From: Bacteroidales bacterium
Lineage (GTDB): Bacteria; Bacteroidota; Bacteroidia; Bacteroidales; UBA7960
Length of the DNA stretch: 34,350 nucleotides
Reading direction: 5' to 3'
Assembly: GCA_007131245.1 (NCBI GenBank)
Contig: SLQX01000292.1
Location: 1-34,350 of the forward strand
The notes beneath the pieces were generated by a model. The model was not told the origin of the DNA. It ran no database searches and saw only the letters and a list, made by a program, of their open reading frames with translations. Each line of letters opens with the position of its first letter. Position 1 is the first letter of the stretch. The translations under genes and the position numbers were made by a program. Positions 8,858-34,350 of the stretch are shown here, piece after piece.

Positions 8858-11800
8858 ATGCAGTTTTATACATACATGATAAACAGGTTCTTATTTTTGT
8901 TTTTGTTCGTACTTGCTTTTTCGGCATTTTCACAAACGCCCCAGCAGAAAGAGTACCTGATACAACTTTCATCAGAACTTGAAGCCGACTACCACAAGAG
9001 CTGGCATGTAGCCAAAAAAAAGGCGGACTCCCTGGGAATTCCCCTGAGGATTGAAACCCCTGAAGGGGTAATGGAGCTTCAGGCGTTTGAGAGGGGAATG
9101 CCTGTTTATTATACAACCTACAATTATCAAGGGGCTGTTGCCATAAACAGTAGTCAGGTATGGCCAGGTGGTAATGCAGGGCTCAATCTTACCGGTCAGG
9201 GACAAACTCTGGGGATGTGGGACGGGGGTGCAACACGGCTTACCCACCAGGAATTTGGCGATAGAGTAGTTCAGGCAGATGGTGCCAGCGCACTTAGCAA
9301 CCATGCCACCCATGTAGCGGCTACCATGGTGGGGGGAGGGTATCAACAGGATGCCAAAGGGATGTCATATCTGGCTAATCTTGATGCCTACGACTGGAAT
9401 AATGATGTTTCGGAAATGGCTGAGGCTGCTGCAGAGGGCTTGCGGGTTTCCCAGCACTCTTATGGCTTTACCGCAGGATGGCGATGGGATGATGGTGATT
9501 GGTATTGGCATGGAGATTTGTCCATAAGCACTGAGGAAGATTACAAGTTTGGATTTTATGATGATATTGCCCGTACATGGGATTTGATTGCCAATAATGC
9601 CCCTGGTTATTTGATTGTAAAGTCGGCGGGCAACGACAGGGGCCGTGGCCCAGAGCCCGGGACCGGTCATTATGTTTGGAGTGAGGGAGGTTGGACATGG
9701 TCAACAGATGTTCGCCAACTGGATGGTGGTGAGGATGGCTTTGACTGTATATCTAGGAACGGTAATGCCAAAAACATTCTTACGGTGGGTGCTGTAACTG
9801 CACAGGGCGTAATGTCAGACTTCAGTGGCTGGGGCCCCACAGATGATGGACGCATTAAACCCGATATTGTAGCCAAAGGGGTAGGGGTCTACTCTGCTAC
9901 TGCTGCAAGCGATTTTGCCTACGACACATGGAATGGTACCTCCATGTCAGGCCCCATGGTAAGTGGTTCAGTGGGGCTATTGCTTGAACATTACCAAAAC
10001 CTCCACGGTCCTTTTTCTTCTTTGCGCTCTGCCTCCATGAAAGGCCTGATCCTACATACAGCCGATGAAACCGGCAGTCATCCTGCCCCGGATTACAGCT
10101 ATGGCTGGGGGATGATGAACACCCAAAGTGCTGCTGAACTCATCAGTCATGATGCGCTGGCAGGCGGAGATTTTAATATTAGGGAGTTGACCCTTGAAAA
10201 TGACCAAACTGTTGAGCTGGAAGTTGTTTCTGATGGGACAGCTCCTTTGAAAGCTACCATAGTTTGGAACGACCCGGCTGCGTCTCCTTTACCTCCTGCA
10301 CTTAACCCAACAACGCCTATGTTGGTAAACGACCTGGATTTGCGCATTTATGATGAATCCGATACTGCGTATTTTCCCTGGATTCTTGACCCCGCTAACC
10401 CTGCTGAAACAGCCACTACGGGTGACAACTTTCGCGACAATGTGGAGCAGGTGTTTATTGAAAACCCCGTGGAGGGAGAAACCTATACCATCACGGTCTC
10501 TCATAAAGGGACTCTCAGCGATTCCCAGGAGTTTTCACTGATTGTTAACGGTATTCATTGGGAAGACCTGAATAAACAAGTGACTTTTACGGTGTCCAAT
10601 GAGGCGGGCCAACCTCTGGAGAATGCCAGGATTACGATCGATCCCCAAAGTGAAAAAAAATATGATTCCCTCCAGCTGCCAAAATCTGGTAATAGTAGCA
10701 GCAGGGAAGCTGATGTTCCTGCAAAAGAATGGTTATCCAGCCTGGCAAGAGGTTTTGAAATGGAACTACAAAACAAGGATTCAGATGACTTTGTCAAAAC
10801 ACCCCCTGGTATTGAAAATAAATCCGGCTATTGGTTGCACTGGGACACAGGTGTAAATGAGGGTTCCATTGGTATTGGAAACGGGGGGATTTTTTACGTG
10901 GCTGCCCGCTGGCAACCAGATGAGCTGCAGGCTTTCCAGGGGATGTTAATAAGTAAACTCAGGGTTTATATTAGTGACCTCCCCACAAATGTAACTGCCA
11001 AAATTTGGCAGGGAATGAATGAGTACAGTTTGCAGGAGATGGTATCAAAGTCTTTTGTGCCCGCCGAAACTAGTTGGAATGAAGTATATTTCGACCAGGC
11101 ATACCCGGTTAATGTTGAGGAGGAGTTGTGGATAGGACTTGAAATTGATGATCCAGGCGATGATTTGTACCCCATGGGCAGGGATAATGCCACTTTGCAC
11201 GACGGCAAAGGAAACAAAGTAAAAATAGGCCATGATGGGGATTGGGACAATTTATCCGGGTATGATATCGCAGGCAACTGGAATTTGCAAGCTTTTCTTG
11301 AAGAATCCCAGGAGTCGGTATTGTTTACTGATGCCAATGGTCAGGCAGCTTTTCTTTCCACGGGAGGAACGTACAATTATATGATTGAAAAAGATGGTTA
11401 TCTAACTTATGAAGGGACCTTTTCTGTTACCGAAAACGATCTTGACATTGATGTTATATTGCAATATGATGAAAATCCACCAGAGCGTTATCTCCTGGAA
11501 CTTGTTGGTGAACCTGAACCTGCAGGAACATTAAGTGGAGCTGGAGAATACGAGCAGGGCACCCTTGTGGATGTTGGTGCATTGGCTGCTGATGGTTATG
11601 AGTTTTCTCACTGGACTGACATTCATGAGAACACTATAAGTGCACAGGCTAACTTTGAGTATGCCATGCCCGCATCAGATATGGTGCTGACCGCTCATTT
11701 TCAACCTACAATGCATACCCTGGAAATAGACACCCAGGGGGGTGGCGAAGTTTTAGTTGATGATAGCGTTTATGATGGAGTGGTTGCCTTTGAATATGGG

Positions 11801-12427
11801 AGCCAGGTTATTTTGAAAGCTATGGCTGATCCGGGATGGCGGTTTGATAGCTGGAGCGGGGATATTATGTCGGATAGTTTGGAGGAAACCTTGCTGATTG
11901 ACCAGGATAAATCAGTTACAGCCCATTTTTCAGAGCTCCCGCTTTTTGAGCTGAAACTCATGGCTAACCCCGCTTATGCTGGTGCCACAGAGGGAGAAGG
12001 GCTGTACTATGAAGGTCAAGAAGTGGTCGTTGAGGCAATTGCCCATCAGGGCTACATATTCCAACAATGGAGTGATGTGTACAACAATGAAGTTGCGGGT
12101 CAGTCAGAATATACCTTTGATATGCCTGCCAATGAATTGACGCTTGTGGCCCATTTTTATACAGAAACATTTACCCAGGAACAATCTGCAGAAGAGATAA
12201 ATATGTTTCCAAATCCGGCCCGCGGATATATCGTTGTTATTTCTGATATGGAAATACAGCAGGTGATGATAAAAGATATCACGGGCAGGGAAATTCTTGC
12301 AGAAAGGGTAACTGGTAAAAGTATTCGGATTGAATTGGCTGGAGTACATCCAGGTGTGTATATGGTCACCCTTAAAACGATGTATGGCCCTGTTGTAAAG
12401 AAATTGCAGATATTGGGAAGGGATTAA
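8858..12427 (+). CDS. Secreted S8 subtilisin-like serine protease with InlB-like repeats and T9SS sorting domain
   Basis: This is a large exported peptidase (1189 residues). A signal peptide ends near 'FSAFSQ'. The subtilase domain shows the catalytic Asp in 'LGMWDGG' (Asp122), His in 'HATHVAA' (His149), the oxyanion Asn in 'SAGND' and Ser in 'NGTSMSGP' (Ser362). A beta-rich domain like those after other subtilases follows, then a region of unknown fold. Three divergent InlB B-like repeats lie at about 876-948, 951-1027 and 1028-1104, each with a 'GY/GW-x-F-x-x-W' block and ending in 'AHF'. The C-terminal 75 residues form a type A T9SS sorting domain ('MFPNPARGYIVV', 'DITGREI', 'GVYMVTL'), so it should cross the outer membrane through type IX secretion and be surface-bound or released. 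A second ATG at 8876 (MINRF) gives an equally good signal peptide. Substrate unknown. Confidence 0.93.
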   Translation: MQFYTYMINRFLFLFLFVLAFSAFSQTPQQKEYLIQLSSELEADYHKSWHVAKKKADSLGIPLRIETPEGVMELQAFERGMPVYYTTYNYQGAVAINSSQVWPGGNAGLNLTGQGQTLGMWDGGATRLTHQEFGDRVVQADGASALSNHATHVAATMVGGGYQQDAKGMSYLANLDAYDWNNDVSEMAEAAAEGLRVSQHSYGFTAGWRWDDGDWYWHGDLSISTEEDYKFGFYDDIARTWDLIANNAPGYLIVKSAGNDRGRGPEPGTGHYVWSEGGWTWSTDVRQLDGGEDGFDCISRNGNAKNILTVGAVTAQGVMSDFSGWGPTDDGRIKPDIVAKGVGVYSATAASDFAYDTWNGTSMSGPMVSGSVGLLLEHYQNLHGPFSSLRSASMKGLILHTADETGSHPAPDYSYGWGMMNTQSAAELISHDALAGGDFNIRELTLENDQTVELEVVSDGTAPLKATIVWNDPAASPLPPALNPTTPMLVNDLDLRIYDESDTAYFPWILDPANPAETATTGDNFRDNVEQVFIENPVEGETYTITVSHKGTLSDSQEFSLIVNGIHWEDLNKQVTFTVSNEAGQPLENARITIDPQSEKKYDSLQLPKSGNSSSREADVPAKEWLSSLARGFEMELQNKDSDDFVKTPPGIENKSGYWLHWDTGVNEGSIGIGNGGIFYVAARWQPDELQAFQGMLISKLRVYISDLPTNVTAKIWQGMNEYSLQEMVSKSFVPAETSWNEVYFDQAYPVNVEEELWIGLEIDDPGDDLYPMGRDNATLHDGKGNKVKIGHDGDWDNLSGYDIAGNWNLQAFLEESQESVLFTDANGQAAFLSTGGTYNYMIEKDGYLTYEGTFSVTENDLDIDVILQYDENPPERYLLELVGEPEPAGTLSGAGEYEQGTLVDVGALAADGYEFSHWTDIHENTISAQANFEYAMPASDMVLTAHFQPTMHTLEIDTQGGGEVLVDDSVYDGVVAFEYGSQVILKAMADPGWRFDSWSGDIMSDSLEETLLIDQDKSVTAHFSELPLFELKLMANPAYAGATEGEGLYYEGQEVVVEAIAHQGYIFQQWSDVYNNEVAGQSEYTFDMPANELTLVAHFYTETFTQEQSAEEINMFPNPARGYIVVISDMEIQQVMIKDITGREILAERVTGKSIRIELAGVHPGVYMVTLKTMYGPVVKKLQILGRD

Positions 12428-32826: not shown

Positions 32827-32869
32827 CCGGACTTATGAATCAATGTCAATTTCAATAAAAAGTACAGTT

Positions 32870-34069
32870 ATGCCTAAAATATCAGATAAAGGCCGTCAGA
32901 TGCCTGAAAGCCCCATACGCAAGCTGGTTCCCTTCGCGGAGAAAGCAAAAAAAGCGGGCAGAAAAGTTTATCATTTGAATATCGGGCAACCCGATATCCC
33001 CACTCCAAAGTCGATGATCGATGCCATGCACAATCTGGATATTGATGTAATTGCTTACAGCCATTCGGCCGGAATTCTTTCTTATCGTGAGAAAATGTGT
33101 GAATATTACCGCAAGCACAATATTCACATAGATCCTGAGCAGATTATTGTTGCCGCAGGAGCTTCAGAGGCTATCCTTTTTGGTGTGCAATCCTGCCTCA
33201 ACCCCGGTGATGAAATCATTATTCCCGAGCCTTTTTATGCCAACTACAACGGATTTGCCATTAGTGCCGGAGTAAAGGTTAAACCCATCATTTCCAGCAT
33301 TGAATCAGGCTTTGCTTTGCCTCCCATCTCTGAGTTTGAGAAGGCCATTGGTCCAAACACGAAGGCAATCATGGTATGCAACCCCAACAACCCTACGGGT
33401 TATCTTTATTCTGCCGATGAGTTGGAGGTGCTTCGTCAGATTGTGAAAAAGTATGACTTATTTTTATTTGCCGATGAAGTTTACCGGGAGTTTTGCTATG
33501 ATGGTACAGTACATCATTCAGTGATGAATCTTGAGGGCATTGAGGATAATGTGGTATTGTTCGATTCCGTTTCCAAACGTTACAGTGCCTGTGGTGTGCG
33601 CATCGGAGCCATGATTTCCCGCAATAAAGAGGTTATGTCTACTGCCCTGAAGTTTGCACAAGCCAGACTGAGCCCCCCATCCCTGGGTCAAATCGCCGCC
33701 GAAGCTGCCATGGAAACTCCTGATAGTTATTTTACCGAGGTAATGGGAGAATATCTAAAACGCCGTGATGTTGTGGTAGAAATGATGAGTAAAATGGAAG
33801 GGGTGGTTTGTCCAAAGCCTAAAGGTGCCTTTTACGTAACAGCCAGCCTGCCCATCGATGACTCTGACAAATTCTGTCAATGGTTGCTTGAAGATTTTGA
33901 GCATGAAAATCAAACGGTAATGATGGCGCCTGCAACCGGCTTTTACTCTACTCCCGGAGCAGGAAAGAATGAAGTGCGAATTTCGTATGTACTTAATGTA
34001 GATGATCTGAAAAATGCAATGAATGCTTTGGAGAAAGCACTCGGGCAATATCCCGGGAAAACGCTTTAG
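32870..34069 (+). CDS. PLP-dependent class I/II aminotransferase
   Basis: This cytosolic fold-type I aminotransferase belongs to the aspartate/aromatic aminotransferase group. Visible features are 'YHLNIGQPDIPTP' near the N-terminus, 'AAGASEAILFGVQSCLNPGD', 'MVCNPNNPTGYLYS' (the NPTG block), 'LFADEVYREF' (the PLP-contacting Asp), 'DSVSKRYSACGVRIGAMIS' with the Schiff-base Lys, and 'NEVRISYVLN' with the substrate-carboxylate Arg. The lysine context 'SVSKRYSACGVRIG' is characteristic of a Bacteroidota subgroup. I start it at ATG 32870 (MPKISDKGRQMP, 399 residues), the usual N-terminus of close relatives as I recall them; ATG 32843 would add nine residues with a leader too short for comfort. The exact amino acid substrate is not settled. 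A strong terminator follows. Confidence 0.94.
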   Translation: MPKISDKGRQMPESPIRKLVPFAEKAKKAGRKVYHLNIGQPDIPTPKSMIDAMHNLDIDVIAYSHSAGILSYREKMCEYYRKHNIHIDPEQIIVAAGASEAILFGVQSCLNPGDEIIIPEPFYANYNGFAISAGVKVKPIISSIESGFALPPISEFEKAIGPNTKAIMVCNPNNPTGYLYSADELEVLRQIVKKYDLFLFADEVYREFCYDGTVHHSVMNLEGIEDNVVLFDSVSKRYSACGVRIGAMISRNKEVMSTALKFAQARLSPPSLGQIAAEAAMETPDSYFTEVMGEYLKRRDVVVEMMSKMEGVVCPKPKGAFYVTASLPIDDSDKFCQWLLEDFEHENQTVMMAPATGFYSTPGAGKNEVRISYVLNVDDLKNAMNALEKALGQYPGKTL

Positions 34070-34139: not shown

Positions 34140-34178
34140 AAAAAAGTCCGCAAATCCAAATTGATTGCGGGCTTTTTT
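34140..34178 (+). terminator. Rho-independent terminator after the aminotransferase gene
   Basis: AAAAAAGTCCGCAA pairs with TTGCGGGCTTTTTT (one G-U pair) around an 11-base loop and ends in six T. It is 70 bases after the aminotransferase stop and immediately precedes the group II intron. Confidence 0.88.
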
Positions 34179-34181
34179 AGC

Positions 34182-34350
34182 GTGCCGTGCATGGCCTGTA
34201 ACTTGGTGGTGAAAGTCCACTATGGGGGGTTGTAGTCGCCAACTATTAGCCAAAGGCAAGGGTGTCCATCGCGAGGTGGAATCTGAAGGAAGCCGGAGGC
34301 AAACTACTTTATTTTCCTCCTACTCGATTTGCCGTATAATGAAAAAACGG
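34182..34350 (+). mobile_element. 5' part of a group II intron (runs off, or breaks near, the right edge)
   Basis: The sequence begins GTGCC, close to the 5' consensus GUGYG. It then carries a run of domain I elements I recognise from bacterial group II introns: 'ACTTGGTGGTGAAAGTCCAC', 'TTAGCCAAAGGCAAGGGTG', 'GTCCATCGCGAGGTGGAATC' and 'TGAAGGAAGCCGGAGGCAAA'. Small stems expected of domain I can be drawn (GTGG/CCAC, GTTG/CAAC, GCC/GGC, TCCA/TGGA). These introns normally encode a reverse transcriptase/maturase further downstream, which would be beyond the window. After about 34304 the text ('CTACTTTATTTTCC...') no longer looks like the usual continuation, so the element may be truncated there. 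It starts 3 bases after the T-run of the preceding terminator. Confidence 0.75.

Follow-up and report, generated by a model that had tools for sequence, protein, structure and literature searches.

The target of group IIC (bacterial class C) introns is laid out as a stem-loop, a spacer, IBS1 and a T at +1 (PMC10190682, PMC8919778, PMC4424553), with a stem of about 12 bp and with the T pairing with EBS3 (PMC10190682). A passage of PMC8919778, citing Robart et al. (2007), places class C introns right behind terminators genome-wide, and terminator targeting by this class is also described in PMC4424553. According to the latter source, most bacterial group II intron copies are truncated or inactivated. 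A literature search under the terms IIC introns and Bacteroidetes found no paper on such introns in that phylum.

We analyzed a stretch of 34,350 nucleotides from a Bacteroidales bacterium (the window), which is an entire contig (C80) of a metagenome-type assembly of 3.88 Mb in 292 contigs. At its right end lies a short group II intron sequence. Full-length relatives of this sequence have the same domain I-VI text as the described IIC introns (E. rectale/MarathonRT, GsI-IIC, O. iheyensis O.i.I1 and B. halodurans B.h.I1), and like them they have a reverse transcriptase (RT) free of an endonuclease domain and sites behind terminator stem-loops, with a T-rich IBS1 and a T at +1. The window copy, in contrast, is about 1.75 kb shorter, lacking RT, EBS1 and domain V, and its 5' end reads GTGCC. 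The introns of Draconibacterium orientale, Algoriphagus and Arenibacter belong to the same Bacteroidota sub-lineage (RT 71-79% identical over a 65-aa query) but, unlike the window copy, are mostly intact and RT-bearing; the D. orientale chromosome has nine intron loci, each behind a different terminator-like stem. Like truncated or deleted bacterial group II copies, the window copy is internally deleted and has lost the ribozyme core. Nothing essential sets it apart from them; it happens to keep both termini.

The intron remnant and its surroundings

The features of the locus are as follows.

32843..34069, + strand: aminotransferase class I/II gene, the upstream neighbor (PF00155, 7.5e-52)
34140..34178: bidirectional intrinsic terminator, the target-site stem-loop of the intron (sequence and fold)
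34173..34181, + strand: 5' exon end TTTTTTAGC (IBS1 region), from the window sequence
34182..34304, + strand: domain I remnant, intron positions 1-123, 97% identical to the intron 5' ends in G010:C50 and G016:C46
34295..34304, + strand: putative deletion junction GGAGGCAAAC, with L065 as reference for the 5' part and C45 for the 3' part
34301..34328, + strand: domain VI remnant and intron 3' terminus, ending in CTACTTTATTTTCCTCCTACTCGAT and matching the intron 3' ends of C45 and C176 at each of its last 28 nt
34329..34350, + strand: 3' flank with T at +1, common to contig C146, where it leads into the 3' end of an oppositely oriented uvrA

The terminator AAAAAAGTCCGCAAATCCAAATTGATTGCGGGCTTTTTT spans exactly 34140-34178 and consists of an A-run, a GC stem and a T-run; its fold has an energy of -17.3 kcal/mol. 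It is expected to end the transcript of the aminotransferase gene, orthologues of which were found in 10 of 11 other genomes of the genus. The intron 5' end (GTGCC) starts at 34182, 3 bases past the T-run. Related genomes carry intron copies whose 5' ends match 34182-34304 with 97% identity over 123 nt; L065 differs by four substitutions across these 123 nt, all before the junction. An earlier note on this DNA had placed a terminator at 34140-34178, an intron boundary at 34182 and thus group II sequence directly behind a terminator, all of which held up, also in that relatives lie behind terminators. It had taken the element to run from 34182 to 34350. The start stands, but the element ends at 34328, the remaining 22 letters being the flank shared with C146.

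Positions 1-123 of the intron are followed at once by the final 25-28 nt of domain VI, giving an element of 147 nt (34182-34328), while intact relatives measure about 1.9 kb (e.g., L129, 1984-3908). The EBS1 region, domains II-V and RT are missing. Domain V, which lies upstream of the intron 3' ends in C45 and C176, had no RF00029 match anywhere in the window. Likewise, no RT/maturase was found in the 147-nt element, and uvrA comes next in C146, so that the RT or domain V that the earlier note sought to the right is not there. When the organism's own genome was searched for RVT_1, only one stop-containing fragment was obtained, located elsewhere. This binned genome is without any full-length RT-bearing copy, and the intron interior is known from relatives only.

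The group II covariance match proposed as a check was obtained, but just under threshold: RF02001 (group-II-D1D4-3) matched 34265-34350 with 31.1 bits (E 9.7e-5; gathering score 32). Full-length copies in relatives reach 132-156 bits with this family and also match RF01998 and, in some cases, RF00029. Other sub-threshold Rfam matches in the window (Thr_leader, ncr1175 and others) were attributed to the terminator hairpin or to chance. From its sequence, the window element appears to be an internally deleted, dead group IIC remnant, a scar that should be unable to splice or move because EBS1, domains II-V and RT are gone.

Elsewhere in the window, 8858-12427 (+ strand) encodes a large, probably secreted subtilase, in which InlB-type repeats are combined with a type IX-like C-terminal sorting tail.

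Insertion sites of related introns

The survey of sites covered 80 distinct insertion points of related introns. An earlier, loose terminator test was positive at 76 of them, with a high background (shuffles 32.6; controls 44/227), and was therefore replaced by a strict test for a stem plus T-run. By the strict test, a terminator lies directly upstream at 54 of the 80 sites, compared to a mean of 0.72 and a maximum of 4 in dinucleotide shuffles and to 0/376 upstream control windows. Terminators in the 5' flanks of relatives, which the earlier note had predicted, were thus found. The remaining 26 sites show mostly imperfect stems by eye. They include the window's own, whose stem is interrupted and therefore fails the strict test while passing the looser one. 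On average, the 60-nt flanks folded at -21.8 kcal/mol, as against -10.1 kcal/mol in controls.

The 5' exon is T-rich in 43 close copies, with G at -2 in 40 and, at -1, T in 41 and C in two; both own-genome copies (C80 and C27) end their 5' exon in AGC. On the 3' side, the first base (+1) is T in 57/66 copies. Counting the T after CTCGAT as an intron base was considered and rejected, since its frequency at +1 indicates a site preference. A T-rich 5' exon with terminal GT and a T at +1 would fit short IBS1 plus IBS3 recognition, as judged from the exon side. The site data agree with the published IIC target and with the position of class C introns behind terminators.

Several other introns were observed on the way. 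The second own-genome intron 5' end (C27, 15066-15181, G000) lies behind another hairpin and the same TTTTAGC, and its contig ends inside domain I. Tandem IIC introns occur at L116:1359-3881 (Algoriphagus chordae) and L151:892-3472 (Bacteroidia PG1894_40), where an RT-less intron (627 and 659 nt, respectively) adjoins a full-length one. In both, the second intron begins one base (T) after the end of domain VI of the first, whose domain VI hairpin may take the place of the terminator. Literature searching under the phrase tandem group II introns yielded no paper on such arrangements. In own-genome contig C261 (L029, reverse strand, 4222-3953), a decayed domain I lies behind a domain VI-like hairpin, with no recognizable domain V ahead of this stretch. 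The arrangement is probably another such tandem in a decayed state; circular permutation of an intron (PMC8637638) was considered as an explanation of the order of domain VI before domain I and set aside. At L148 (Bacteroidia MS502-62, reverse strand from 889), an intron sits in the 3' part of another in opposite orientation, behind a hairpin-like stretch. Finally, own-genome contig C17 (L030, reverse strand from about 862) has a different IIC-like intron, with the beginning of an RT, downstream of a tRNA and the terminator after it. The contig is possibly contamination; the class argument makes no use of its intron.

Class of the intron

In relatives that share this domain I, the intron encodes an RT/maturase of about 475 aa. 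When compared with solved structures, this RT scored 390 bits with the E. rectale IIC enzyme (7uim) and 385 with GsI-IIC, well above LtrA (147) and 6me0 (103), so that its closest match does not come from classes A, B, D, E, F, ML or CL. Pfam detected RVT_1 and GIIM only, with no endonuclease domain. Window-type RNA matches the same Rfam families as GCGCCC-type IIC copies such as L116, and the sites of relatives are laid out as stem-loop, spacer, IBS1 and T at +1. Because the RT is nearest to IIC enzymes and free of an endonuclease domain, and because Rfam families and target layout are of the IIC kind, we assign the intron to group IIC, a call made by similarity of the relatives' RT. The earlier view that domain I looks like that of another bacterial class is not upheld.

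The putative deletion junction and the 3' side

The junction coincides with an imperfect 10-nt repeat GGAGGNAAAC that occurs once in domain I and once in domain VI. Both parent stretches contain GGAGG[C/A]AAAC, with exact microhomology AAAC at 34301-34304. About 1.75 kb may have been lost through deletion at this microhomology, as the repeat suggests, and an internal deletion is the simplest reading of the junction. The same junction was absent at any other locus in 47 genomes of the family.

The final 121 nt of the window contig recur, without a mismatch, as the first 121 nt of C146 read on its reverse strand. C45 and C176 overlap by the same length, which points to the word length of the assembler. 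The overlap of C80 and C146 crosses the junction and takes in the locus-specific 3' flank. In C146, uvrA (named from its sequence) is convergent with the aminotransferase gene, and in two relatives (G003 and G007) the aminotransferase gene is followed by convergent uvrA with no intron between them. Because the overlap crosses the junction and these intron-free neighbors exist, both flanks belong to one locus.

Proposed history of the locus

We consider it about 90% probable that an IIC intron of about 1.9 kb inserted behind the terminator and was then deleted to a 147-nt scar. A full-length intron with a class C RT would have entered just after the terminator, between the aminotransferase gene and convergent uvrA. 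Its RNP would have recognized the terminator stem-loop, with EBS1 pairing to the T-rich IBS1 and EBS3 to the T at +1, and the intron would have been copied into this harmless site by the mechanism solved for the E. rectale IIC intron. Some 1.75 kb would later have been lost between the short imperfect repeats of domains I and VI, leaving a scar without EBS1, domains II-V and RT.

It is conceivable that the junction is an assembly error, in which case the locus would hold an active IIC intron of full length and the short form would be a mis-assembly of a multi-copy repeat. The contig does break within the element, several own-genome intron 5' or 3' ends fall at the end of a contig (C27, C45 and C176), and the bin lacks the intron interior. 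However, the 121 nt common to C80 and C146 include both junction and 3' flank, and a de Bruijn assembler working with words of this size would need junction-containing reads. Contig overlap and gene neighborhood in relatives thus speak against an error, as do different internal deletions in relatives (L067 in G002, 431 nt; L074 in G007, 280 nt; domain V kept in both), and we regard it as unlikely. Even if the short form is real, it might be a non-autonomous mini-element mobilized in trans instead of a scar, as it keeps both intron termini. Such an element would need domain V and the EBS1 region for splicing and targeting, and these are gone; nor does any further copy share its junction in the 47 genomes of the family. 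Hardly any weight can be given to it, less than to either of the other alternatives.

The earlier note had also suggested a second lineage at the same safe site, that is, a non-IIC group II lineage independently using terminators. In its favor, GTGCCGTGCATGG at the 5' end and GCGCCCGGCATGGGCG of the Firmicutes copies are not alike in detail. Yet the two forms have RT relatives in common, in one tblastn list, and RT affinity, the missing endonuclease domain, the Rfam families shared with the L116 copy and the target layout are all on the IIC side. At the level of RT similarity such a lineage is already disfavored, and we hold it to be very improbable.

Significance

With the deleted IIC intron as the preferred reading, the locus also illustrates that an intron 5' boundary at a contig end need not imply a whole intron beyond it. 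The class call is corrected to IIC, with no second lineage. The find itself is an ordinary one, one more apparently dead copy of a well-described retroelement class at a typical IIC site. Together with its relatives, it confirms the terminator preference of IIC introns in Bacteroidales and other Bacteroidota.
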